DNA of 64,000 nucleotides from Nitrospirota bacterium (lineage in GTDB: Bacteria; Nitrospirota; Nitrospiria; JACQBW01), in the NCBI GenBank assembly GCA_016194305.1, contig JACQBW010000007.1:62001-126000 (forward strand), read 5' to 3'. A program made the translations under genes and the position numbers. The notes under the pieces were generated by a model. The model made no database searches, was not told the origin of the DNA, and saw only the letters and a program-made list of their open reading frames with translations. Positions 11,817 to 23,255 of the stretch are shown in pieces (positions within the stretch are counted from its first letter, which is position 1; the number at the start of each line of letters is the position of its first letter).

Positions 11817-12715
11817 GCTCTCCTCTCGATGACTCTCATTTTCGCGCTGCGGGATGCAGGGTTAACTTTTACTTCCGATTCGCCCGGAGATACCGGCTTT
11901 TTAGTCCACTGGAACAGGGGATCCTTTTTCCGTTTTTGCACAAGATCCAGAAACGTTCGTTTCACGATCCGGTCTTCAAGCGAATGGAACGATATAATCG
12001 CCAGCCTTCCGCCAATCGCAAGATATTGAAATATCTCCCGAATAAATTCTGACAACAGGTCCAGTTCCCGATTGACGGCGATTCGAAGTGCCTGAAATGT
12101 TCGAGTTGCGGGGTGAATTCGTCCATATCGATATTGTGAGGGGACCGATTTTTTTATCAGTTCGGAAAGTTGTCCTGTGGTCATGATCGGGCTTTTCTCG
12201 CGTTCCCGGACAATCGACCTGGCAATGCGTCCCGCATACCTTTCTTCTCCATACCGTTCAATGAGTCCGGAGAGTTCCTCTTGACTAAGGGATTCCACCA
12301 GATCCCTTGCCTGAAGAGGTTGGGATGGATCCATTCTCATATCAAGCGGTCCGGATTTCTGAAAGCTAAATCCCCGGTCGGGATTTTCCAATTGAAGGGT
12401 TGAAACACCCAAATCGGCCAATATCCCGTGAAAGGTCCCTTTTCTTTCTGAATGAATCACCTGGCTCACATGCCTGAAATCGGAGTGATAAAAAAAATAT
12501 CTTCCTTGATATTTTTCCCGAAGCCTTTCGTCCGCCTGGGTTAATGCGGTCTGATCTCTATCCAGGCCGAAAAGTCTCCCATCGGGCGAAGATTTTTCCA
12601 AAATGGCTTCGCTATGTCCGCCTCCACCTACGGTACAATCAAGATAGGATTTCCCGGGCCCGACCCTCAGATAGGAAATCACTTCGTCACACATCACCGG
12701 AAAATGCTGAATCAA
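11813..12715 (-). CDS. rsmH: 16S rRNA (cytosine(1402)-N4)-methyltransferase RsmH
   Basis: SAM-dependent methyltransferase that modifies C1402 of 16S rRNA in the decoding centre (formerly MraW). The 300 residues open with HFPVMCDEV and the SAM-binding GGGGHSEAIL loop (about 30-39). Further in are LADLGVS, FSFQKSGPLDMRMD and the late ISFHSLEDRIVK motif, all diagnostic of the family. It follows mraZ by 1 bp and overlaps ftsL by 4 bp. Confidence 0.97.
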   Translation of the reverse strand: MIQHFPVMCDEVISYLRVGPGKSYLDCTVGGGGHSEAILEKSSPDGRLFGLDRDQTALTQADERLREKYQGRYFFYHSDFRHVSQVIHSERKGTFHGILADLGVSTLQLENPDRGFSFQKSGPLDMRMDPSQPLQARDLVESLSQEELSGLIERYGEERYAGRIARSIVREREKSPIMTTGQLSELIKKSVPSQYRYGRIHPATRTFQALRIAVNRELDLLSEFIREIFQYLAIGGRLAIISFHSLEDRIVKRTFLDLVQKRKKDPLFQWTKKPVSPGESEVKVNPASRSAKMRVIERRA

Positions 12716-12716
12716 T

Positions 12717-13169
12717 TCAGAACCCCAGCTTAATGAGCAACTGCTTCATTCGATTCTGCGTGTCAGGGTGCGCGTTAATGGATTCCTGCGCTTTCCAGCT
12801 TTCAAGATCCCAAATTTCAAATTTGTGGTAATGACCGAGGAAGATAATTTCCCGCCCCAGGCGGGCATGCCGGCGAAGGTCATTTGAAAGGAGTATTCTC
12901 CCCTGTTTGTCAATCAAACACTCTTCTGCCGTTGCAAAAAAGAATCGGGCAAATCGCTGGATATCTTCCTCAACTCTCGGAAGATTCTGAATTTTTTCCG
13001 CAACCTGACGCCAGGCCTCCTGAGGGTAAACCGAAAGACAATGGTCCAGATCTCTGGCGACCACCAAGGTCGTTTCTTTCTTTTTTGAGGTCAGCTTTTC
13101 CCTGAATTTGCCAGGTATGCTCACCCTCCCTTTTTCGTCGATGTTATATTCAAACTGGCCAAGAAACAT
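12717..13169 (-). CDS. mraZ: Transcriptional regulator MraZ
   Basis: AbrB-like double-domain DNA-binding protein that typically regulates its own dcw operon. From ATG at 13169 the protein is 150 residues and begins MFLGQFEYNIDEKGRVSIPG, the conserved MraZ N-terminus; a second SpoVT/AbrB-like repeat contains EECLIDKQGRILL. An in-frame GTG at 13184 would add five residues (V/M-G-K-S-G) but lies inside the operator, so the ATG is preferred. It is the first gene of the cluster. Three TGGGN boxes directly precede it and the last box ends on the A of the ATG, which implies autoregulation. Confidence 0.95.
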   Translation of the reverse strand: MFLGQFEYNIDEKGRVSIPGKFREKLTSKKKETTLVVARDLDHCLSVYPQEAWRQVAEKIQNLPRVEEDIQRFARFFFATAEECLIDKQGRILLSNDLRRHARLGREIIFLGHYHKFEIWDLESWKAQESINAHPDTQNRMKQLLIKLGF

Positions 13170-13193
13170 CCCACTTTTCCCCACTTTTCCCCA
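13169..13193 (-). promoter_or_regulatory. MraZ operator: three TGGGN boxes with 5-nt spacers
   Basis: On the minus strand TGGGG, TGGGG and TGGGA lie at 13193-13189, 13183-13179 and 13173-13169, each pair separated by AAAAG. TGGGN repeats spaced by 5 nt are the known binding signature of MraZ. The array fills the predicted 5' untranslated region, contains the purine-rich ribosome-binding region, and its last base is the A of the mraZ start codon. Bound MraZ could therefore block both transcription and ribosome access. Confidence 0.85.
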
Positions 13194-13201
13194 TAAAATG
13201 G

Positions 13202-13229
13202 AGTATACACTTTAGAAATATGATGTCAA
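13202..13229 (-). promoter_or_regulatory. Sigma-70 promoter of the dcw operon
   Basis: Minus-strand TTGACA (13229-13224), a 16-nt spacer, then TATACT (13207-13202). The -35 is perfect and the -10 matches 5 of 6. The predicted start near 13195 is at the upstream edge of the MraZ boxes, giving a leader of only about 26 nt. Confidence 0.85.
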
Positions 13230-13319
13230 GAATAAATTCGCTGCTCCATTTGAAAAAAATAAAGGAGTCGCCTGGCGTGAATCAATAAACAGGATTTACA
13301 CTATCGGAGGATGGAGTTT

Positions 13320-15341
13320 CTAGAGTGACTGAACAAGTTGGGAAACGAAGACTTCGACGATTTTTGGATCAAATTGAGTCCCCGAATTGCGTTTCAGCTC
13401 TTCGATGGCCTGATCTCGGGTCAGTTTTGGACGGTAGGGACGGACGGATATCATCGCATGATAAGCTTCCGCAATTCCCAGGATTCGGGCCAGAAAAGGG
13501 ATTTCTTCCCCTTTCAAGCCATTGGGGTACCCATGCCCGTCGAATCGTTCATGATGATAAAGGATCGCGGGAAGAACCAGTTCCATTTGGGACGACTTCT
13601 TAAGAAGCATTTGAGCCAGGCTGGGATGGGCCTGAATAATCTTGACCTCTTCCGGAGAAAGAGGACCCGGTTTGTTCAATACCCTGTCCGGGATACTGAC
13701 TGTTCCAATATTATGGAGGAAACTGGCCAGCTGAAGACTCTTTTTCTGATCGTCGTTGAGTTCTAACGCATCTCCCAAGAGCGTGGCATATTCCACAACA
13801 CCATCTGTATGACCCCGGGTATACGGGCACTTTGCATCAATGGCCATCGCCAGATCCCGAATCGTCGTAATCTTGGGATCTGTGAGAAGATCGTCCAGTT
13901 TTCTCTTGTCTTTCTCGATCGCCGATTTGAGCGTCTCGCTGTAACAGCAAACCCGGTTTCGGCCTTCATTTTTCGCAAAATAGAGCGCCTGATCGGCCAT
14001 GATAATCAACTCTTCCCGGGTTTTCGTATCTTCCGGAAAGGAAGAGATCCCTATGCTCACCGTGACATGGACAAAGTGTCCTGGAACAGCCACAAAGTGA
14101 TTTCCTTCAATGGATTGCCGGATTCTTTCCGCGACAACCTTGGCGTCCTCTTTCGAAGTTTGAGGAAGAATTACGGTAAACTCTTCGCCGCCGTATCGGG
14201 AAGGAATATCCGCATTTCGGATCCCTTTTCTGATAAGCCGGACAATCTCCTTTAGGACCTGATCTCCCGTCACGTGACCATGGGTATCATTTAACGTCTT
14301 AAAATGGTCGATATCCAGTATGAGAACAGAAAAGAGATTGCCGTACCGGTTGCCTCGTTCCACTTCCTCCAGGAGCCGGTTTTGAAATTCCCGGTGGTTA
14401 TAAAGCCCCGTCAGACTATCTGTCACGGCCTGCTTTTCGACCCCCTCCAGAAACCAGGCATTGTCAATGGCGACTGCGGTGTGGACTGCCAGCGTTGAAA
14501 GGGCCACTTTCTCTTCTTCTGAAAAGGGCGTTCCTTCTATCTTATTCATGACATTGAGCACTCCCATCACTTTTTCCTGCTTAAAGAGAGGGACAGAGAG
14601 AATCTGGCGGATAGCAGGCTGATGTTCCGGCGTCGCTTTCCAGCGAGGGTGGATAAGAGGTTCTTCTATCACCACGGGTTCACGTTCGGAATAGCCCATA
14701 CCCAATAAACCTTGCAACGGAACGGGCGTGAGCAAATTTTCCGGGTTCATTTGAAATCCGGACAGGGTGGTATGGACTATTTCTGTCTTCTCCGGATCGA
14801 GCAGGATCAGGACTGCGCACTCCGTATGAATGAGCTCCCGGGCACCGTCCACCAAAATCTGAGTCAGTGTATCGACCCTTCTTTCTTTGGCAACAGACAG
14901 GGATATCTCCTGAAGTTTTCGGGTCCTCGTGGAGGATTCTGCCAGACGTCGCTTGATTTGATTGTTTTCAATTGTCTTTTGTACAACGATCGAGATGGTC
15001 TCAAGGTAATTCTTATTTTTAATAATATATTCGCTGGCCCCTTTTTTCATGGATTCTACCGCGATCTTTTCATCGCCCTGACCCGTGACCATAATGACCG
15101 GTATGGCATGGCCTTCATCCCGAATCTTTCCGAGCACCTCCAAACCATTCATGCGGGGAAGACTATAATCGAGAATTATGGCATCGAAATGGTCTTTTCC
15201 AAGCCACTCCAGCGCAGTGAGTCCATTATCCGCGGCCAGAATTTCAAAACCCGCTTCGTGGGCCTGAAACGCTTCGATCATCATCTCCTGTTGGTCGGGA
15301 TTATCTTCAATCAGGAGCAATTTAAACGGCTTCTTGGGCAT
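13320..15341 (-). CDS. Response regulator with GAF, GGDEF and degenerate HD-GYP domains
   Basis: Cytoplasmic c-di-GMP signalling protein of 673 residues. Domains in order: REC (about 6-120, phosphoacceptor Asp58), GAF (about 150-295), GGDEF (about 305-470) and HD-GYP (about 490-670). The cyclase site GGEEF (384-388) is intact, with an RNAD inhibitory I-site (375-378). In the HD-GYP domain the HD pair reads His-Asn (543-544) and the usual ADAYDAM region reads AEAYHAM, although HHE (596-598) and GYP (604-606) are kept. Diguanylate cyclase activity is therefore likely and phosphodiesterase activity doubtful. It starts 11 bp after the upstream response regulator gene, so it is probably the output of that pathway. 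Confidence 0.9.
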   Translation of the reverse strand: MPKKPFKLLLIEDNPDQQEMMIEAFQAHEAGFEILAADNGLTALEWLGKDHFDAIILDYSLPRMNGLEVLGKIRDEGHAIPVIMVTGQGDEKIAVESMKKGASEYIIKNKNYLETISIVVQKTIENNQIKRRLAESSTRTRKLQEISLSVAKERRVDTLTQILVDGARELIHTECAVLILLDPEKTEIVHTTLSGFQMNPENLLTPVPLQGLLGMGYSEREPVVIEEPLIHPRWKATPEHQPAIRQILSVPLFKQEKVMGVLNVMNKIEGTPFSEEEKVALSTLAVHTAVAIDNAWFLEGVEKQAVTDSLTGLYNHREFQNRLLEEVERGNRYGNLFSVLILDIDHFKTLNDTHGHVTGDQVLKEIVRLIRKGIRNADIPSRYGGEEFTVILPQTSKEDAKVVAERIRQSIEGNHFVAVPGHFVHVTVSIGISSFPEDTKTREELIIMADQALYFAKNEGRNRVCCYSETLKSAIEKDKRKLDDLLTDPKITTIRDLAMAIDAKCPYTRGHTDGVVEYATLLGDALELNDDQKKSLQLASFLHNIGTVSIPDRVLNKPGPLSPEEVKIIQAHPSLAQMLLKKSSQMELVLPAILYHHERFDGHGYPNGLKGEEIPFLARILGIAEAYHAMISVRPYRPKLTRDQAIEELKRNSGTQFDPKIVEVFVSQLVQSL

Positions 15342-15352
15342 AAGTCCTTCTA

Positions 15353-15787
15353 CTATGCGTTATCGTGCTTCGGGCCACTGTTGGTCGTCAGCCAGTAGAG
15401 CTTGAGTGACTTTATTTTTTCAGAAAAATCCTTGAATTGAACCGGCTTGGTGATAAAACTATTGACACCCATGGCATAGCATTTCAAGATCTCCTCGCCC
15501 CGATCTGAAGTCGTCAGCATAATCACCGGAATGACTTTCAGATCGACATCCTCCTTAATCTTTTTTAAAACATCGATTCCACTCAATTTAGGCAGGTTGA
15601 TATCGAGCAAAATCATATCGGGGCGTATTGCCTTTTCGTACACTCCCTTTTTATGAAGGTAATCGATGACCTCCTGACCATCCTTGACCCAATGAACAAG
15701 GATACCGTCATCACCCTCTTCCAGCGACGATTTCGTCATTTCGGCGTGATCGGGATCGTCTTCGACCAGCAACACCACAATCTGCAT
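15353..15787 (-). CDS. Stand-alone response regulator, Rcp1-like
   Basis: Single REC-domain protein of 144 residues with no output domain. The acidic pocket EDD is at 9-11 and the phosphoacceptor Asp62 sits in ILLDINLPKLSG; the switch Thr/Ser and Lys are in MLTTSD and TKPVQF. The spacing and sequence resemble Rcp1/CheY-like partners of kinases with phytochrome-type HisKA domains. It lies 89 bp after the histidine kinase gene and 11 bp before the GGDEF/HD-GYP regulator, so it could relay phosphate between them. The pairing is inferred from order only. Confidence 0.88.
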   Translation of the reverse strand: MQIVVLLVEDDPDHAEMTKSSLEEGDDGILVHWVKDGQEVIDYLHKKGVYEKAIRPDMILLDINLPKLSGIDVLKKIKEDVDLKVIPVIMLTTSDRGEEILKCYAMGVNSFITKPVQFKDFSEKIKSLKLYWLTTNSGPKHDNA

Positions 15788-15876
15788 TGTAAAAAGCTCC
15801 GTTCGAGGTCCCTAAAAAATATTTCCCCTGAATTTAAACATACCATGAATCAAACCAGTGTCAATCTTCTTTGTCC

Positions 15877-17346
15877 TCAATTTCTAGGAAATTTCACGAA
15901 AAAGGTCGTGCCCGCCCCTTTTTGTGATTCCAGCCAAATTTTCCCGCCGCCCATATCGACAATTTTCTTGACAATAGAGAGACCCACTCCGGTTCCTTCG
16001 ACAGTTACCTCTTTTAATCGATGGAAAACGCCGAATATTTTGTCAAAATAATTCGGATCAATTCCGATTCCATTATCTTTGACATAAAATTCTATACTGT
16101 CTTTTTCCTCTCGACCTCCTATTTCAATTCTGGGATGGGGTTGGTCACCCATAAACTTTTCGGCGTTCGTAATCAGATTTTGAAAAAGGTGAGTCAGATG
16201 GCCCCGCTCATATTTGAAATCAGGCAACGAGGGAACGATCACCGCTTCGATTCCTTTTTCACGAAACCGCTCTTTATGGATAGCTAGGATCTCTTTCAGC
16301 GTGTCATGGAGGTCAACTATTTCAGGATTTTCCTGCTTTCGACCGATTCTCGACAGGGAGAGGAGATCATTGATCAGGTCTTCCATATAGTTCGTATTGG
16401 CGACGATCCTGTCCAGGTAATGTCTCCCCTTTTCATCAATCTGATTCCCATATTTGTTTAAAAAGAGGGAAGCCATGCCTTGCATCGACACGACCGGTGA
16501 CTTGAGGTCGTGAGAAATCGTATAAACGAACGATTCCAGCTCATGGGTTCGCTCTTTCACCTGTCTTTCGAGATTTCCGTAAACCTGGGCAAGATCATGA
16601 CTCATATTGTTAAAGCTTTCTGTCAACTGTCCCAGTTCGTCTCGAGACAATACCGGGATAAGAGATCCGTAATCTCCTTTACTGATCCGGAGAGTCCCTT
16701 CCGCCAGGATTTGAATCCGTTTCAATATACTTCCGATAAATAATATGGAAACCAGAAGCATTCCTCCGCCGCTAATGATCATAATCCAGAACATCTGGTT
16801 GGAAATTCGATCGACGGTCTCGAGCACATTCTTAATCGGGTATCCCAGACGCAAGGTTCCTAATCGGGTCTTTTCCTGGATTTTATCTCCCCCGAAAAGG
16901 AGAAATTCTTCCCCCGATCTGGCCTTTTGAACAGACCAGACAGGCAACCATATTTCAAGAACAGATTTTCCTTCGTGGGTGACTTCTTGATAGCCGGGCC
17001 GGTCGGATTTTAAAGATTTAAGCGTCATGACATCGGTATAACGCTTCCCTTTCTCAACAACATTGGTGTGAGCCATGACCAGGCCATTGGGATCAAGCGC
17101 CATGGCGTATAGGGCTCCAGTCCGGTCCATACTTTCCTGCAATAACAACAAGAGCTGGATTTCCTTGCCGTCCGTAAACGCGGAAACGGAAGAGGACTGA
17201 AGTTCACTCGATTTCAGATGTCCTCGTTTTGCAACTTCCTCGATGAGGATCTTACGAACCGCAATATTGGAAAACCAGATAATGACTGTGCCGGTGAGCA
17301 AGATAATTGAAATCAAAAACAAGATCAGCTTGACTTTCAGCTTCAC
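15877..17346 (-). CDS. Membrane sensor histidine kinase (Cache-like/HAMP/HisKA/HATPase)
   Basis: Inner-membrane two-component sensor of 489 residues. Transmembrane helices at about 7-27 and 186-206 bracket a periplasmic Cache-like domain (about 30-185, with the ALDPNGLVMAHT strand pattern). HAMP spans about 207-260. HisKA has the phosphoacceptor His279 in SHDLKSP, and the HATPase domain has the N-box around Asn394, DNGIGI (424-429) and GTGVGL (451-456). It overlaps the periplasmic binding-protein gene by 4 bp, so binding protein and kinase are likely translated together and may form one sensor. The ligand is unknown. Confidence 0.92.
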   Translation of the reverse strand: MKLKVKLILFLISIILLTGTVIIWFSNIAVRKILIEEVAKRGHLKSSELQSSSVSAFTDGKEIQLLLLLQESMDRTGALYAMALDPNGLVMAHTNVVEKGKRYTDVMTLKSLKSDRPGYQEVTHEGKSVLEIWLPVWSVQKARSGEEFLLFGGDKIQEKTRLGTLRLGYPIKNVLETVDRISNQMFWIMIISGGGMLLVSILFIGSILKRIQILAEGTLRISKGDYGSLIPVLSRDELGQLTESFNNMSHDLAQVYGNLERQVKERTHELESFVYTISHDLKSPVVSMQGMASLFLNKYGNQIDEKGRHYLDRIVANTNYMEDLINDLLSLSRIGRKQENPEIVDLHDTLKEILAIHKERFREKGIEAVIVPSLPDFKYERGHLTHLFQNLITNAEKFMGDQPHPRIEIGGREEKDSIEFYVKDNGIGIDPNYFDKIFGVFHRLKEVTVEGTGVGLSIVKKIVDMGGGKIWLESQKGAGTTFFVKFPRN

Positions 17347-18227
17347 GGCGACACCTTTTCGGATTTCTGAAGCACATTTTCGGATATCTTGAGCCCCAGT
17401 GTATTGACCGCCTTTATATTGATGGTTACTTGCATCTTTTCAGGGTAAATTTCGGATAGGTTCAATCCTCCGTTCAACAATTGGTGTGCGGCGACTCCGG
17501 CAATCCGTCCTATTTCATGGAAGGGAGTCGCGATCGACGCGGTCGCACCCTGTTCCACCAATCCCGATGACGGTGTATAGAGCGGAACTTTATTCGACCA
17601 GGAAAACTCCTTCAAAACTTTAAAGCTTTGCGAACTGATCAGAAGAGGGTCAGGCATTAACCAGATGGCATCAATTAATGAGTAAATGGATCGAAGACGA
17701 TCGGGAATCTCTTCCGTTTTGTTTAATTTTTCTGAAATGACTTCAACGCCTGCCGAAAGCGCCGCCTGCCGCATTTTCTCAACCCGGCTTTCCAGGGAAT
17801 TTGAAACCCAGAAGATCGCCAGTTTTTTCATCGAAGGCTGAATTTCTTTCAATTTCAAGACTATCGCATTTTCCGCGGGAAGCATCCTGACCGCAATCGA
17901 AAGACCGATCCTGTCTTTAGAGCTGACCTCTGTTCCCGGTGCCAGACAGAAAATCAGATTCGTATGTTCCGGATAAGGAAAAAGCACAGCCTTCCCTCCG
18001 AAGGCAACGACAAGTTTCGTATCGTTATCGATCTTGAATTTGTCGCCAGACAAATTGTAAGAACGAACCGACTGTCCAAACCCTTCCTGGAATCCTTCGA
18101 AGGCTTCATGGTAAGGTCCCAGATCAGAACTGAGAACCGCGATAATCTCGTGGCCCGAGCATATGACGCCAAAATTCACCCAGAACCCGATTGCCATCGC
18201 AAAGAAAATAGCGCTACGTATTATCAT
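17343..18227 (-). CDS. Periplasmic ABC-type substrate-binding-like protein
   Basis: Exported protein of 294 residues with an N-terminal signal peptide (about 1-25) and the two-lobed pattern of the ABC_sub_bind family (PF04392-like): a first lobe beginning HEIIAVLSSDLGPYHEAF, a hinge, and a C-terminal lobe with GRIAGVAAHQLLNGG. No permease or ATPase gene lies nearby; its neighbours are a TonB receptor upstream (39-bp gap) and a histidine kinase downstream (4-bp overlap). This suggests ligand presentation to the kinase rather than, or besides, import. The ligand cannot be read from sequence. Confidence 0.8.
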   Translation of the reverse strand: MIIRSAIFFAMAIGFWVNFGVICSGHEIIAVLSSDLGPYHEAFEGFQEGFGQSVRSYNLSGDKFKIDNDTKLVVAFGGKAVLFPYPEHTNLIFCLAPGTEVSSKDRIGLSIAVRMLPAENAIVLKLKEIQPSMKKLAIFWVSNSLESRVEKMRQAALSAGVEVISEKLNKTEEIPDRLRSIYSLIDAIWLMPDPLLISSQSFKVLKEFSWSNKVPLYTPSSGLVEQGATASIATPFHEIGRIAGVAAHQLLNGGLNLSEIYPEKMQVTINIKAVNTLGLKISENVLQKSEKVSP

Positions 18228-18266
18228 CTGGCATCTATTACCTGACTGGGAAAATGGATCAAATTA

Positions 18267-20240
18267 TTAATAGGAAACAGACAGTCTGGCAACGATACCA
18301 CTCCCTGGTCCAATCGGCAGAGTATTGACCCAGCCCTTTGAAAATTCGGGATAGCTCATATCATCGTTCAAGATGTTATTCCAGAATAGGTTTAACGCCA
18401 TCGGAATATAATATCGGAAATGATAAGTCCCATTGAGTGTTAGGAGATTGATGGCTTCGGCACCCTCGTTGAGAGGGACTCCGCTGTTTTCATGCGGCTT
18501 CCCGAAGTGGGAAAGAAAGAGACCTGCCGTCAGAGGGTCGAGGTCATAGGCGATCCCGATTTTGGCCATATAGTTGGGGATAAAGAGCGTCTGATCTCTT
18601 TCATTTTGATAGGTTGCCGATCCGTTCAGGGAAAAAGGTTCATTGATCCGCCATTTTCCTTCAAATTCAAGTCCCCAGATATTTTTTTCCCCCGAATTGG
18701 TAAAGGTTTGGGTGCTTCCTGAATAGGGGATCCGGATAATCAGGTCTTCCATTTTGCTGGTGAAAAAGGTGAAGGCAGATTGCGCCCGGGCACCATGGAT
18801 TAAAACCTGAGCGTCTATGGTCGTCACCTTTTCCGGTGTTAACAACGGATTGCCAAGCAAGACATTGGTCAGATTAGAATACCGCTCCTGGGCCGTTGGA
18901 CCTCTGAAAGCTTCTGCATAGAGGAATTTAATGCCGACGGTTTCGCTCAAATCATAAATCGCTCCGGCTCTTTTAACCCAATCATGATCCCCGGTTTCGA
19001 TACTGTTATATTGCACCCCTCCGATAACTTTCAGGTTTTCGAAAATACGGAAATCGGACTGCAAATAACCTGATTCCGTCCGGTTATAAAATCCTCCGGG
19101 GATGGCGGCGCGTTGAACGTTTGGAATGGCCGAAATGACTTCGACACTCTTCCTCTCATCATAAATCAGACCCAAAATAATATTCCATTTTTCCCAGATT
19201 TCTCCCCCCAGAGAAAGCTCTTCAAGTGTGCCCAGGGACTTATCGGGCTCCTGCAATCCCGTTTGAATATAGGTAATTCCTTTATCGTAGTTATTTTGGG
19301 TGACATTGAATTTAAGTTCCCAGGTTTTTGACAAAGGGTGCCGGTAACCAATATCGTAAAACAGCCGCTTTGAATCCATATCGGCTTCATTGGCCCAGTA
19401 GGGCAGTGTTCCCAGAGAGCGATTTTCGACATGAGAATAGAAAATCTGGATCGACAGTCTTTGGTTGTAGTCGAAAAAACCTGAAAGGCTTGAATTTCTC
19501 TCACCGTATTCCGTTTCGTCATATAGATTCGGAGAAGCGGGTCGAGCGGTTCCCGCATTGAAGTCCCACCCGTCATCCTGAAAAACATTGTAGGCAAAAA
19601 TCAAATTCCAGTCCTTGCCCCGAGCGTCTGCGGACAGGGTCTGAAGTTTCGATCCAGCGGTCAGCGACTGAAGTTTAGAACCAAATGATCCCCAACCTCC
19701 GGTATATTTCAACGTCAATGGAAGGTTCGAAGAATCATCCCGATTTTGCGTAATCACATTAATAATTCCTGCTACTGCATTGGACCCGTACAGGACGGAT
19801 CCCGGGCCTCGAATGATCTCGATCCTGTCGATCATTTCAACAGGAAAGCCTTTGTAAAAGGTATTGTCAGCAGTTCCTTCCTGCATCTCCCGAAACGGTC
19901 GCCCATTGATTAAGATGAGGACATGGGAGTCCGAATGCGTCAGAAGGTCCCCCCGAATCACAGACTTGCCCTGTACCCAGAGATGAGAGCTCATCTCTTG
20001 CAGGCTCGGCACCCGATTTAAAATGTCGATGAGATTTACGGCACCGTATTGTTCAATCTCTTTTCGGGTGACCACCGTGATCACACCCGGGGCCTCTCCA
20101 ATTTTTTCAGGTTTTTTGGAAGCGGTAATCACTTCCGCCTCCTCCTGATAGAATTGGAAAATCTCTTCCCCGGCCCGGGACTCTGATTCCATACTTGAAA
20201 AGAGAAATGCGACTGTTAGAAATTTGATTAATTTTTTCAA
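18267..20240 (-). CDS. TonB-dependent outer-membrane receptor
   Basis: Outer-membrane active-transport channel of 657 residues. A signal peptide (about 1-23) is followed by a probable TonB box (EEAEVITAS), a plug domain (about 40-150, with LINGRPF and IEIIRGPGSVLYGSNAVAGIINVIT), and a long beta-barrel ending in Tyr (ARLSVSY). The start is TTG at 20240, preceded by an AGGAG ribosome-binding site about 10 nt upstream; a short GGAG/CTCC inverted repeat could mask it. It is the first gene of the sensory operon and may admit the ligand detected downstream. Substrate is unknown; cobalamin, siderophore and organic chelates are all possible. Confidence 0.92.
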   Translation of the reverse strand: MKKLIKFLTVAFLFSSMESESRAGEEIFQFYQEEAEVITASKKPEKIGEAPGVITVVTRKEIEQYGAVNLIDILNRVPSLQEMSSHLWVQGKSVIRGDLLTHSDSHVLILINGRPFREMQEGTADNTFYKGFPVEMIDRIEIIRGPGSVLYGSNAVAGIINVITQNRDDSSNLPLTLKYTGGWGSFGSKLQSLTAGSKLQTLSADARGKDWNLIFAYNVFQDDGWDFNAGTARPASPNLYDETEYGERNSSLSGFFDYNQRLSIQIFYSHVENRSLGTLPYWANEADMDSKRLFYDIGYRHPLSKTWELKFNVTQNNYDKGITYIQTGLQEPDKSLGTLEELSLGGEIWEKWNIILGLIYDERKSVEVISAIPNVQRAAIPGGFYNRTESGYLQSDFRIFENLKVIGGVQYNSIETGDHDWVKRAGAIYDLSETVGIKFLYAEAFRGPTAQERYSNLTNVLLGNPLLTPEKVTTIDAQVLIHGARAQSAFTFFTSKMEDLIIRIPYSGSTQTFTNSGEKNIWGLEFEGKWRINEPFSLNGSATYQNERDQTLFIPNYMAKIGIAYDLDPLTAGLFLSHFGKPHENSGVPLNEGAEAINLLTLNGTYHFRYYIPMALNLFWNNILNDDMSYPEFSKGWVNTLPIGPGSGIVARLSVSY

Positions 20241-20377
20241 GGAGAAATTGCTCCTCTACAAATAATGTGAGTAAATGTCTAAGACGAGACCTGGGGTTTT
20301 CTCATTTTTGGCCGGTAAGTCGAAATCAAATCGATCCTGGAACCTGAAATGCAAATGTACAGACAAATACACTTTAA

Positions 20378-20405
20378 ATTGTATCAACCGGCTGGATTTT
20401 GTCAA
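20378..20405 (-). promoter_or_regulatory. Sigma-70 promoter upstream of the TonB-receptor operon
   Basis: Minus-strand TTGACA (20405-20400), a 16-nt spacer and TACAAT (20383-20378). The predicted start is near 20371, leaving about 130 nt of leader before the TTG start. No known riboswitch was recognised in that leader. Confidence 0.7.
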
Positions 20406-20422
20406 AAAGGAGAGAGGGAACC

Positions 20423-20935
20423 TTATTCCGGGGAGGAACGGGAAATGCGCCGAACATAGACGACTTTTTCAACCGACGCATGGACCACACCTTCTTTGTC
20501 GACCAATTCGACAGAATAGACGCGGTCAATGGAATGATTTTGGCTGGACAAACGGCGAATTTCCTGTAATTCGTCTTCTTGAAGCAGAAATCGGGCGAAA
20601 AGGACGGATCTGCCCGGTTTTTTGAAATGAATCATCGCCGATTTGTCCCAGACGATGTATTCTTTTCCGAGGATCTTAATCAGCATAATCATATAGATGG
20701 GGTCCACCGATGCGTACAGGCTACCACCGAAAAGGGTCCCCACATAATTTCGAGTTCGCCAGGTAAGAGGAATCTTAATCTGAACCTCTTTGAAGTCATG
20801 CGCGATATAGGTGATTCGGGCCCCCGAAAAGAAATAGGCTGGAAAACAATTGAATCCCCATCGGGTTATTTTTGAACGAAAGGATTCTCTCCTTTGGCGG
20901 CCCTCTCTTTGGGAGGTCGTCGCGTCAAGATTCAA
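20423..20935 (-). CDS. Hot-dog-fold protein, DUF4442-like (putative thioesterase)
   Basis: 170-residue cytoplasmic protein resembling the DUF4442/YiiD C-terminal hot-dog family. The pattern RNYVGTLFGGSLYASVDP (about 75-92) matches the central helix and dimer strand of acyl-CoA thioesterase-like folds, and KSAMIHFKKPGR follows. Members are predicted to act on acyl-thioesters, but no substrate can be assigned. Its start overlaps the stop of the upstream CarD-like gene by 4 bp, so the two are probably co-translated. Confidence 0.72.
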   Translation of the reverse strand: MNLDATTSQREGRQRRESFRSKITRWGFNCFPAYFFSGARITYIAHDFKEVQIKIPLTWRTRNYVGTLFGGSLYASVDPIYMIMLIKILGKEYIVWDKSAMIHFKKPGRSVLFARFLLQEDELQEIRRLSSQNHSIDRVYSVELVDKEGVVHASVEKVVYVRRISRSSPE

Positions 20936-21453
20936 TCTTCTCCTTTTTGGCCGATGAAATGGTCAGCTTTATTCTTGAACAGGATATTGAATGTCGTCAA
21001 TGATCCATATATACGGGTAATATATTGCTGGAGCTGGACCTTTTCGGAGTCCGACAAAACTTTATGGCCGTTAATCTGCTGTTCCATCACCCGAAGGCGG
21101 TCACGGATCATCACGATTTTATGGAAAAAAGTATCCAGAGGAATCTTCTTGGATTCCAGGCCGCTCTGAGAGGGTTTGAGAATGACCTCTCCACCCGTCC
21201 ATCGATCCATCAGTTCCACCTGAGGGAGTTCTTCGCGCCTGATTTCATCGATCGCAAGCTTGACCATCTCATAGGCGGCACTTTCAGTTTCCGAAAGCGT
21301 TTGAATCTGTTCCCGCGCTACGGAAGTCTCTTTATCGCTTTTCGGAAAATAAACCATACATCGCTGGTTTTCTCCATAACCGGAGGCTTCTTCCACCCGC
21401 CCGATTCCGTATCGGACATGCCTGACCAGATCTCCTTTTATCAAATCGCCCAC
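20932..21453 (-). CDS. CarD-like N-terminal domain protein of unknown function
   Basis: 173-residue protein. The first 55 residues (GDLVRHVRYGIGRVEE, then MVYFPKSDKETSVAREQIQTL) resemble the Tudor-like CarD/TRCF RNA-polymerase-interacting domain or the related DUF3553 fold. The rest is mostly helical with no recognised motif. A GTG start at 21453 follows a GGAGAGG ribosome-binding site, and a TATAAT at 21501-21496 could serve as a -10. A regulator that contacts RNA polymerase is possible, but the C-terminal half differs from CdnL, so function is left open. Confidence 0.55.
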   Translation of the reverse strand: MGDLIKGDLVRHVRYGIGRVEEASGYGENQRCMVYFPKSDKETSVAREQIQTLSETESAAYEMVKLAIDEIRREELPQVELMDRWTGGEVILKPSQSGLESKKIPLDTFFHKIVMIRDRLRVMEQQINGHKVLSDSEKVQLQQYITRIYGSLTTFNILFKNKADHFIGQKGED

Positions 21454-21542
21454 TTTTCCTCTCCTTTTTAAAAACGATTAAAAGTTATCTTTATTATTAT
21501 ACTCAAAGCGGGCAATAAATACAGCGTCTGCAACCGGATACA

Positions 21543-21571
21543 TTGAATTATACCGCTTCTCATGTTACACT
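21543..21571 (+). promoter_or_regulatory. Possible sigma-70 promoter of the RNase J gene
   Basis: TTGAAT (21543-21548), a 17-nt spacer and TACACT (21566-21571). Each hexamer matches 4 of 6. The predicted start near 21578 lies only a few bases before the ATG at 21582, which would make the message almost leaderless. Confidence 0.4.
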
Positions 21572-21581
21572 CCAGTTCTAA

Positions 21582-23255
21582 ATGGAGCAGCCGGTATTGC
21601 ATAAAAAAGCTCTTTCCATCATTCCCCTCGGAGGACTCGGGGAAGTGGGAATGAATATGATGGTCTACGAATACGATGAGGATATTATCATCGTCGATGC
21701 GGGCCTCATGTTTCCGGACCAGGAGATGCTTGGAATCGATGTCGTCATTCCTGATTTCACCTACCTTAAAGAAAATGCCTCAAAAATCAGGGGAATCGTC
21801 ATTACCCATGGACATGAAGATCATATTGGCGCTCTCCCTTATCTTCTCTCCGAATTAAATGCACCGGTTTATGCGACCCCCTTAACGATCGGACTGATTC
21901 AAGCCAAACTCAAAGAATGGGATATTCGCCAATCAGAAATGTTTTCCGTCAGACCGCGGGAATCCATATCGCTTGGCGTATTTAAGGTGGAATTTATCCG
22001 CGTGACACATAGCATCGTAGATGGCGCTGCGCTTGGAATCAGCACACCGGTCGGCAGAATCGTACATACGGGAGACTTCAAAATTGATCAAACTCCGGTA
22101 GACGGAGAAAGAACCGATATTCAAAAACTGGGGGAATACGGGGACGCCGGAACACTGGTGCTCCTCTCTGACAGTACCAACGCGGAACGGCCAGGCTATA
22201 CGTTGTCCGAGAAAGTGGTCGGCAGAGCCTTTGACGAAATCTTTTCCCTGAAAAAATCCCGGCTCATCGTCGCCACTTTTTCATCCAATATTCACCGGAT
22301 TCAACAAGCCATACACGCTGCAAAACTGTCGGGCAGAAAAATCTTTCTTTCCGGTAAAAGCATGACAAAAAATACCCAGATCGCTGCTGAACTTGGATAC
22401 CTTGACCTGCCTCCCGATATCCTGGTCAAACTCGAAAACGTCAATAGCTACCCGGATGATCAGGTCGTGATTCTCACGACAGGGAGTCAGGGAGAACCGC
22501 TCTCTGCTCTTTTTAGAATGGCCATAGATGATCACAAACAGGTCAAGATCAAGGCGGGAGACACCGTTCTTCTCTCTTCACGGGTCATTCCTGGCAATGA
22601 AAAGGCTATCAGCAGGATTATCAACCATCTTTTCAGGCGAGGTGCCGAAGTCATTTATGAGCGGGTATCGGACATTCATGTTTCAGGACATGCCAGCCAG
22701 GAAGAATTAAAAATGATGATCAACCTCGTGAGGCCGAAATTTTTTATTCCGATACACGGAGAGTACCGCCAGCTCCTTCATCATGCGCGAATCGCGGAGG
22801 GGCTCGATATCAAAAAAGAGAATATCGAGATCATTGAAGATGGCGATGTCATTGCGCTTTCGGAAGACCGGATGGAAAAAAGGGGGAAAGTTCATGCCGG
22901 AAGAATTTTTATCGATGGAAAAGGTGTGGGAGACGTCGCCGATTTCGTACTCAGAGACAGAAAACATATCGGACAGGACGGAATCATTGTGCTCATCATC
23001 GGACTCGATAAGGTGACAGGAGAAATTGTATCCGGGCCGGAATTTATATCAAAAGGATTTGTTTCCGAAGAAGAGGCTTACAGTCTATTTTCCGAATTGA
23101 AACTCCTGGTTTTGAAGCTACTCGGAGAAATGAATCAGGAAGTTAAATCCGAATGGATCGTGGTCGAGGGGATGGTCAAAAAAACGTTGGGGAAATTTAT
23201 TTACAAACAGATTGAACGAAGACCGATGATTATTCCAATTATCCTGGAGCTATGA
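21582..23255 (+). CDS. rnj: Ribonuclease J
   Basis: Metallo-beta-lactamase/beta-CASP ribonuclease with 5'-3' exo- and endonuclease activity in mRNA decay and rRNA maturation. The 557 residues contain the zinc motif HGHEDH (75-80), further metal-binding segments around HTGDFKID and LLSDSTNAE, beta-CASP motifs, a late HVSGHAS and PIHGEYR, and a C-terminal domain. The conserved start region (LSIIPLGGLGEVGMN) supports this ATG, yet no Shine-Dalgarno sequence precedes it. It is divergent from the CarD-like gene and is followed 10 bp later by ftsK. Confidence 0.95.
   Translation: MEQPVLHKKALSIIPLGGLGEVGMNMMVYEYDEDIIIVDAGLMFPDQEMLGIDVVIPDFTYLKENASKIRGIVITHGHEDHIGALPYLLSELNAPVYATPLTIGLIQAKLKEWDIRQSEMFSVRPRESISLGVFKVEFIRVTHSIVDGAALGISTPVGRIVHTGDFKIDQTPVDGERTDIQKLGEYGDAGTLVLLSDSTNAERPGYTLSEKVVGRAFDEIFSLKKSRLIVATFSSNIHRIQQAIHAAKLSGRKIFLSGKSMTKNTQIAAELGYLDLPPDILVKLENVNSYPDDQVVILTTGSQGEPLSALFRMAIDDHKQVKIKAGDTVLLSSRVIPGNEKAISRIINHLFRRGAEVIYERVSDIHVSGHASQEELKMMINLVRPKFFIPIHGEYRQLLHHARIAEGLDIKKENIEIIEDGDVIALSEDRMEKRGKVHAGRIFIDGKGVGDVADFVLRDRKHIGQDGIIVLIIGLDKVTGEIVSGPEFISKGFVSEEEAYSLFSELKLLVLKLLGEMNQEVKSEWIVVEGMVKKTLGKFIYKQIERRPMIIPIILEL

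Follow-up and report, generated by a model that had tools for sequence, protein, structure and literature searches.

Organization of the locus

Analysis of open reading frames together with Pfam searches places five genes on the minus strand of the window (the whole 64,000-nt stretch of DNA analysed here), from position 20240 to 13320. In the direction of transcription, they encode a TonB-dependent outer-membrane receptor, a periplasmic binding protein, a membrane histidine kinase, an Rcp1-like receiver (REC) protein and a REC-GAF-GGDEF-HD-GYP protein (Table 1). The first-pass annotation, which gave no strand, had listed the same genes, order and domains, and the 4-bp overlap that it reported between the kinase and binding-protein genes is exact. 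The successive junctions measure 39 nt, a 4-nt overlap, 89 nt and 11 nt. The unit is flanked by a gene for a DUF4442 protein 182 nt upstream and by mraZ 135 nt downstream. An Rfam scan of positions 12700-21600 returned no riboswitch or other RNA family, and hence no clue to the ligand.

Table 1. Genes and promoter-like sites of the five-gene unit, in window coordinates.
Feature	Position	Strand	Evidence
TonB-dependent outer-membrane receptor, 657 aa	18267..20240	-	Pfam PF07715 Plug 2.9e-21, PF00593 7.6e-31
PF04392 ABC_sub_bind periplasmic binding protein, 294 aa	17343..18227	-	Pfam 3.3e-20
Membrane histidine kinase TM-sCache_3_2-TM-HAMP-HisKA-HATPase, 489 aa	15877..17346	-	Pfam; two hydrophobic segments
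Rcp1-like single-domain response regulator, 144 aa	15353..15787	-	PF00072 2.5e-23; sister-locus orthologs 63-75% identical
REC-GAF-GGDEF-HD-GYP (HD_5) protein, 673 aa	13320..15341	-	Pfam; motif comparison; alignment to PmGH 4MCW
Putative main promoter TTGACA-N16-TACAAT, TG before -10	20378..20405	-	consensus match only, 11/12
Putative internal promoter TTGACA-N16-TATGTT, TG before -10, 5′ of Rcp1-like gene	15837..15864	-	consensus match; ortholog match

Conservation and distribution in Nitrospirota

The source genome (2.27 Mb in 37 contigs, 95% complete) belongs to the same class as Ca. Manganitrophus and encodes 5 TonB plug domains, 3 PF04392 proteins and 25 HAMP matches. Because such genes are few and the exact five-gene order recurs in a second genome (G011), the arrangement is not a product of chance. 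Three of the G011 products are 59-63% identical to those described here and the binding protein is 51% identical, while the TonB receptor, at 24%, is the least conserved member. A near-exact order is found in G022, in which a REC-HD-GYP protein replaces the GGDEF protein. In Ca. Manganitrophus G036, the order becomes soluble kinase, Rcp1, GGDEF, TonB, binding protein and membrane kinase; G050:C1 and CP114561.1 represent the same Ca. Manganitrophus locus. A paralogous module elsewhere in the source genome (G000:C19:104000-120500, L041) reads NtrC, binding protein, HAMP-PAS kinase, TonB and REC. The neighbourhood is thus strongly conserved, as these genomes and the phylum-wide tally below indicate, but the earlier idea that gene order retraces a signal path does not hold in relatives: the output genes precede TonB in Ca. 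Manganitrophus, and in the C19 paralog NtrC comes first and TonB after the kinase.

PF04392 proteins are present in 213 of 296 sampled Nitrospirota genomes. About 95 loci were picked by a PF04392 or binding-protein match only, with one or a few per genus, and their neighbours were annotated with our own profiles; 89 loci from 50 genera were usable, and the source locus was excluded from the count. The sample is non-random, some of its loci fed the profiles, HAMP is part of the transducer profile, and several contigs stop close to the genes of interest. Within these limits, a Cache/HAMP transducer is encoded on the same strand at most two genes away at 79 of the 89 loci (44 genera), a TonB receptor at 48 (26 genera), any outer-membrane barrel at 59, an MtrB/PioB-like barrel at 11 and an ABC permease/ATPase at 1. 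We estimate the chance that a TonB gene lies within two places of a random gene at ~1%, on the basis of roughly one gene per kilobase and the counts of the source genome. As a control, genes of these loci at a distance from the binding-protein gene gave 0/49, a number too small on its own, to which genome-wide counts were added. The outputs vary from locus to locus and include a kinase with NtrC, a kinase with GGDEF or HD-GYP regulators, fused GGDEF-EAL, fused HD-GYP and a chemoreceptor.

Promoter-like sites and the linkage of the two halves

The best promoter-like site in a consensus scan lies upstream of the TonB gene (20405-20378), a good match that fits the initial proposal of one promoter for the whole unit. 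However, the unit itself contains another promoter-like site, between the kinase and Rcp1-like genes, which is matched in the ortholog from G011 (L034), whose corresponding junction spans only 48 nt and still has TTGACA-16-TACGTT. No promoter-like site was found at this junction in three loci in which the output cassette directly follows its kinase (L035, L172 and L173). Because the internal site recurs in G011, without counterpart in these three loci, a single promoter for all five genes is doubtful, and there are probably two. An internal promoter suggests that the two halves can be transcribed separately.

Carried further, the same observations could mean that the two halves are chance neighbours on two transcripts (TonB, binding protein and kinase on one, Rcp1 and diguanylate cyclase on the other) and functionally unlinked. 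This idea is compatible with the 89-nt gap, whose promoter-like site has a counterpart in an ortholog, and with the occurrence of the REC-GAF-GGDEF-HD-GYP gene away from such loci, with other kinases. We nevertheless consider it highly improbable, since a sequence scan found no terminator-like site in the gap and the halves are adjacent in the f1, f5 and f9 genomes, in different orders. Furthermore, G020 encodes, immediately after TonB and the binding protein, a fusion of an orthologous sensor with PAS-GGDEF-EAL, which links the TonB/binding-protein input to c-di-GMP. Read-through combined with an internal start appears to be the more economical reading of the gap.

The receptor and the binding protein

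The receptor carries a TonB-box-like motif (EAEVITAS) near residue 34, its plug begins at residue 49, and the source genome has 4 ExbD matches. In the FecA-FecR-FecI and PfeA-PfeRS systems, signalling across the envelope or a two-component system is connected with an outer-membrane receptor. Here, unlike in those systems, Pfam finds only the plug and the barrel, with no extra N-terminal signalling domain, the locus neighbours include no FecR/FecI-type partner, sigma factor or anti-sigma factor, and receptor and kinase are separated by a binding protein. FecA-type signalling was rejected because the receptor lacks the N-terminal signalling domain.

The binding protein starts with a hydrophobic signal segment, and a lipobox scan that included its relatives found no lipobox. 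Its AlphaFold2 model (pLDDT 84) best matches the PDB structures 3LFT (L-Trp bound), 3LKV and CD0873 (6HNI/6HNJ). Since the motifs of its N-terminal lobe differ from those of other members, prediction of a ligand from the fold is limited to noting that 3LFT is bound to Trp. The protein shares its family and fold with TrpX and CD0873 (3LFT, 6HNI); unlike them, it is encoded in a signalling neighbourhood with neither permease nor ATPase, and it scores 65.6 bits against the TrpX equivalog model, below the cutoff of 390 bits. A TrpXYZ-type importer was rejected on the same grounds, PF04392 being present without the cognate permease/ATPase and with a score under the TrpX cutoff.

PF04392 proteins are elsewhere encoded with an ABC permease and ATPase, in one case within Nitrospirota (L113), and the TonB receptor and binding protein could accordingly serve nutrient uptake by feeding an inner-membrane importer encoded at a distance, with the two-component part tuning only expression or lifestyle. 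We regard this as distinctly unlikely. Open reading frames and Pfam reveal no ABC permease/ATPase at the locus, and adjacency to such genes is limited to 1 of the 89 phylum loci. PF04392 proteins are served by permeases of PF02653 (BPD_transp_2), and the genome encodes just two of these, LivHM, which have their own Peripla_BP_6; no spare permease of this family is left for the binding protein in the 95% complete genome. Contig C10 also encodes a separate, conventional TonB-Peripla_BP_2-FecCD-ATPase set. The description of a binding protein without a transporter therefore holds at the locus and, as far as the family can be searched, in the genome, where the search for an ABC pair that might use this protein returned only LivHM. 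It is possible that an importer belongs to another family or lies in the missing 5% of the genome.

The kinase sensor and its tie to the binding protein

The periplasmic domain of the kinase spans roughly residues 26-183. The AlphaFold2 model of the kinase sensor (pLDDT 82) matches DcuS, CitA and WalK, and also LuxQ, one of the matched chains being chain B of the LuxP-LuxQ complex 1ZHH. With these modelled folds, the sensor could bind a ligand directly or receive a docked binding protein, and neither option is favoured. We therefore weighed docking against the possibility that the kinase senses a small ligand of its own through its sCache domain, which could itself bind one, and that the TonB and binding-protein genes share its transcript but not its function, for example supplying a distant importer. 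The CitA/DcuS-like fold of the sensor commonly binds small molecules directly. In Ca. Manganitrophus, the kinase survives deletion of the two upstream genes: the TonB gene is broken by deletions in G042 (L036:8574-9445), almost the whole TonB gene and an internal segment of the binding-protein gene are missing from G050 (L039:8486-9181), and only short remnants of both persist in G046 (L206:1273-1577), while the kinase and GGDEF genes are kept in all three. Either these lineages are in the process of losing the input, or a different input acts on the kinase. A sensor paralog on C10 of the source genome (L205:947-3391, sCache-HAMP-PAS-GGDEF-EAL, sensor 38% identical to that of the kinase) likewise has no binding protein beside it.

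Direct sensing of this kind is nonetheless unlikely. The binding-protein gene not only overlaps the kinase gene here, but adjoins a transducer gene across the phylum, in 44 genera. A search of 197 genomes of the class with the sensor only yielded eight other close homologs (48-54% identity), all eight encoded directly downstream of a binding-protein gene or, in G050 and G046, of its remnant. The distances among binding proteins correlate strongly with the sensor distances (r=0.89, n=67) and more weakly with those of the TonB receptors (r=0.80, n=20), with 0/999 permutations as high in either case, both correlations being confounded by common descent of whole loci. The lack of a spare permease of the matching family also speaks against a distant importer. 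Docking of the binding protein on the kinase is the reading that we consider likelier.

The output module

The kinase, Rcp1 and GGDEF genes also occur without TonB and the binding protein (L171-L173), and for this reason we describe the operon as two modules sharing the kinase. The first-pass annotation proposed a relay through the Rcp1-like regulator toward the GGDEF protein, a claim that found no support: REC-to-REC relay was rejected because it requires an HPt step and the operon encodes no HPt protein. For the same reason, parallel phosphorylation of the two REC domains is simpler than a chain, and a branch is the likelier route from the kinase.

The GGDEF half of the last protein has an intact GGEEF motif and I-site (RNAD), both preserved in every ortholog that covers them, and the REC domain and GGEEF active site expected of a phosphorylation-controlled diguanylate cyclase are both present. 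On the other hand, the HD-GYP half does not carry the HD dyad and conserved metal ligands of an HD-GYP phosphodiesterase. Where PmGH (4MCW) has HDIGK and DxxDA, it has HNIGT and EAYHAM, that is N for D, T for K and E for D. All close orthologs keep HN and replace the lysine, a few wider homologs retain HD or K, and HD-GYP-only regulators at neighbouring loci retain HDIGK. The HHE...GYP motif and the upstream GH are kept, which could suggest an active HD-GYP half and an output consisting of c-di-GMP breakdown or of a bifunctional activity; in view of the substitutions, we judge this to be very unlikely. The HD-GYP half looks catalytically dead and is probably regulatory. The proposed c-di-GMP output would therefore come from the GGDEF half of the protein, and is probably c-di-GMP synthesis, since HD-GYP is degenerate while GGEEF and the I-site are intact. 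The protein resembles PleD-type and REC-GAF-GGDEF regulators in its predicted control by phosphorylation, and degenerate HD-GYP proteins in its lost metal ligands, but differs from both in uniting GGDEF and a degenerate HD-GYP in one protein, of a family conserved in the class. The source genome has 19 PilZ matches, and PilZ proteins could read the c-di-GMP.

Proposed mechanism and relation to known systems

We propose that the locus is a trans-envelope sensory operon, in which an input module (TonB receptor, binding protein and transducer) and an output module (kinase, Rcp1-like REC and REC-GAF-GGDEF-HD-GYP protein) are joined at the kinase, an explanation to which we assign a probability of roughly 0.6 as a whole. 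The TonB receptor would bring a scarce or large ligand into the periplasm, where the soluble PF04392 protein would capture it. By analogy with LuxP and LuxQ, the loaded binding protein would dock on the periplasmic sCache domain of the kinase, which would in turn act in parallel on the phosphorylation state of two REC domains, that of the Rcp1-like protein and that of the GGDEF protein, by a presumed phosphotransfer and with a presumed sign of the response. The GGDEF protein would then make c-di-GMP, available to PilZ-type proteins, under the probable regulatory influence of its HD-GYP half.

It is established that binding proteins can activate kinases and that they are often encoded next to them (PMC11113362, PMC9602780); NspS-MbaA of Vibrio cholerae connects a binding protein to c-di-GMP (PMC8967002). 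The locus shares with LuxP-LuxQ and other kinases activated by solute-binding proteins (PMC11113362) a binding-protein gene beside that of a Cache-type membrane kinase, but it differs in its PF04392 family, in the outer-membrane receptor in the operon, in its direct GGDEF output and in having no hybrid REC/HPt relay. As in NspS-MbaA (PMC8967002), a periplasmic binding protein is predicted to control c-di-GMP through a membrane protein; NspS, however, binds polyamines and acts directly on a GGDEF-EAL protein, with neither kinase nor TonB receptor, an arrangement to which the G020 fusion is closer. The assertion that this is not a standard described system consequently needs narrowing. Binding-protein-activated kinases are known, but the open-access literature that we searched describes no TonB-binding protein-kinase module, and none that couples a binding-protein-activated kinase to an outer-membrane receptor gene or to PF04392. 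The unusual part is only the outer-membrane-coupled, output-swapping module, which appears undescribed.

A possible wider module and its variants

In Elusimicrobiota, PF04392 genes are found in fewer genomes (12/80), and TonB, binding protein and HAMP transducer occur together at 9 of the 13 loci examined. On annotated plasmids of other phyla, a standard ABC permease and ATPase accompany 5 of 8 PF04392 loci. The PF04392 family has both transport and signalling uses, and signalling dominates in Nitrospirota. A broader proposal, for which we see about even odds, is that Nitrospirota and Elusimicrobiota share a general module in which an outer-membrane barrel, a PF04392 protein and an sCache-HAMP transducer would read ligands through a dedicated channel, either a TonB receptor or an MtrB/PioB-like porin with a multihaem cytochrome. 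This module could be plugged into kinases with NtrC or c-di-GMP regulators, GGDEF-EAL, HD-GYP or a chemoreceptor, the present locus being its c-di-GMP version. If this is true, one phylum uses a binding-protein family known for transport almost wholly for signalling and couples it with channels of the outer membrane, and there would be a described mechanism by which lithotrophic lineages (nitrite and manganese oxidisers and their relatives) detect external compounds that are large or scarce. The proposal also makes testable the idea that TonB import, in the absence of sigma/anti-sigma factors, drives a second-messenger output, and offers a reason, at the level of the whole family, to re-annotate genes of "ABC transporter substrate-binding proteins" that have no transporter.

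Several loci depart from the common plan. Eleven loci from other classes of Nitrospirota (L126, L137, L144, L146, L147, L149, L150, L163, L165, L167 and L168) combine an MtrB/PioB-like porin, PF04392 and an sCache-HAMP chemoreceptor, and in most of them a nine-haem cytochrome precedes the cluster, which looks like a porin-cytochrome conduit wired to chemotaxis. In L137 (4846-7749) and its L126 equivalent, the sCache-HAMP-MCP protein bears a C-terminal PhnD-like binding-protein domain; that of L137 has no preceding transmembrane segment and would be cytoplasmic. Four loci of the NtrC version (L061, L067, L068 and L069) have a gene for a protein of ~700 aa between the TonB and PF04392 genes, and its product in L067 matches Peptidase_M1. 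The sole real ABC importer in the phylum sample (L113:7084-10899) is a 1271-aa BPD_transp_2 permease fused to three PF04392 domains, with an adjoining ATPase. In two Elusimicrobiota loci (L197 and L201), two tandem copies of the TonB-binding protein pair precede just one HAMP kinase, as though a pair of receptors fed the same kinase. Finally, on plasmid pRL31b4 of Rhizobium leguminosarum (L212:2749-5548), PF04392 adjoins a dCache-HAMP-adenylate/guanylate cyclase, that is, another second messenger.
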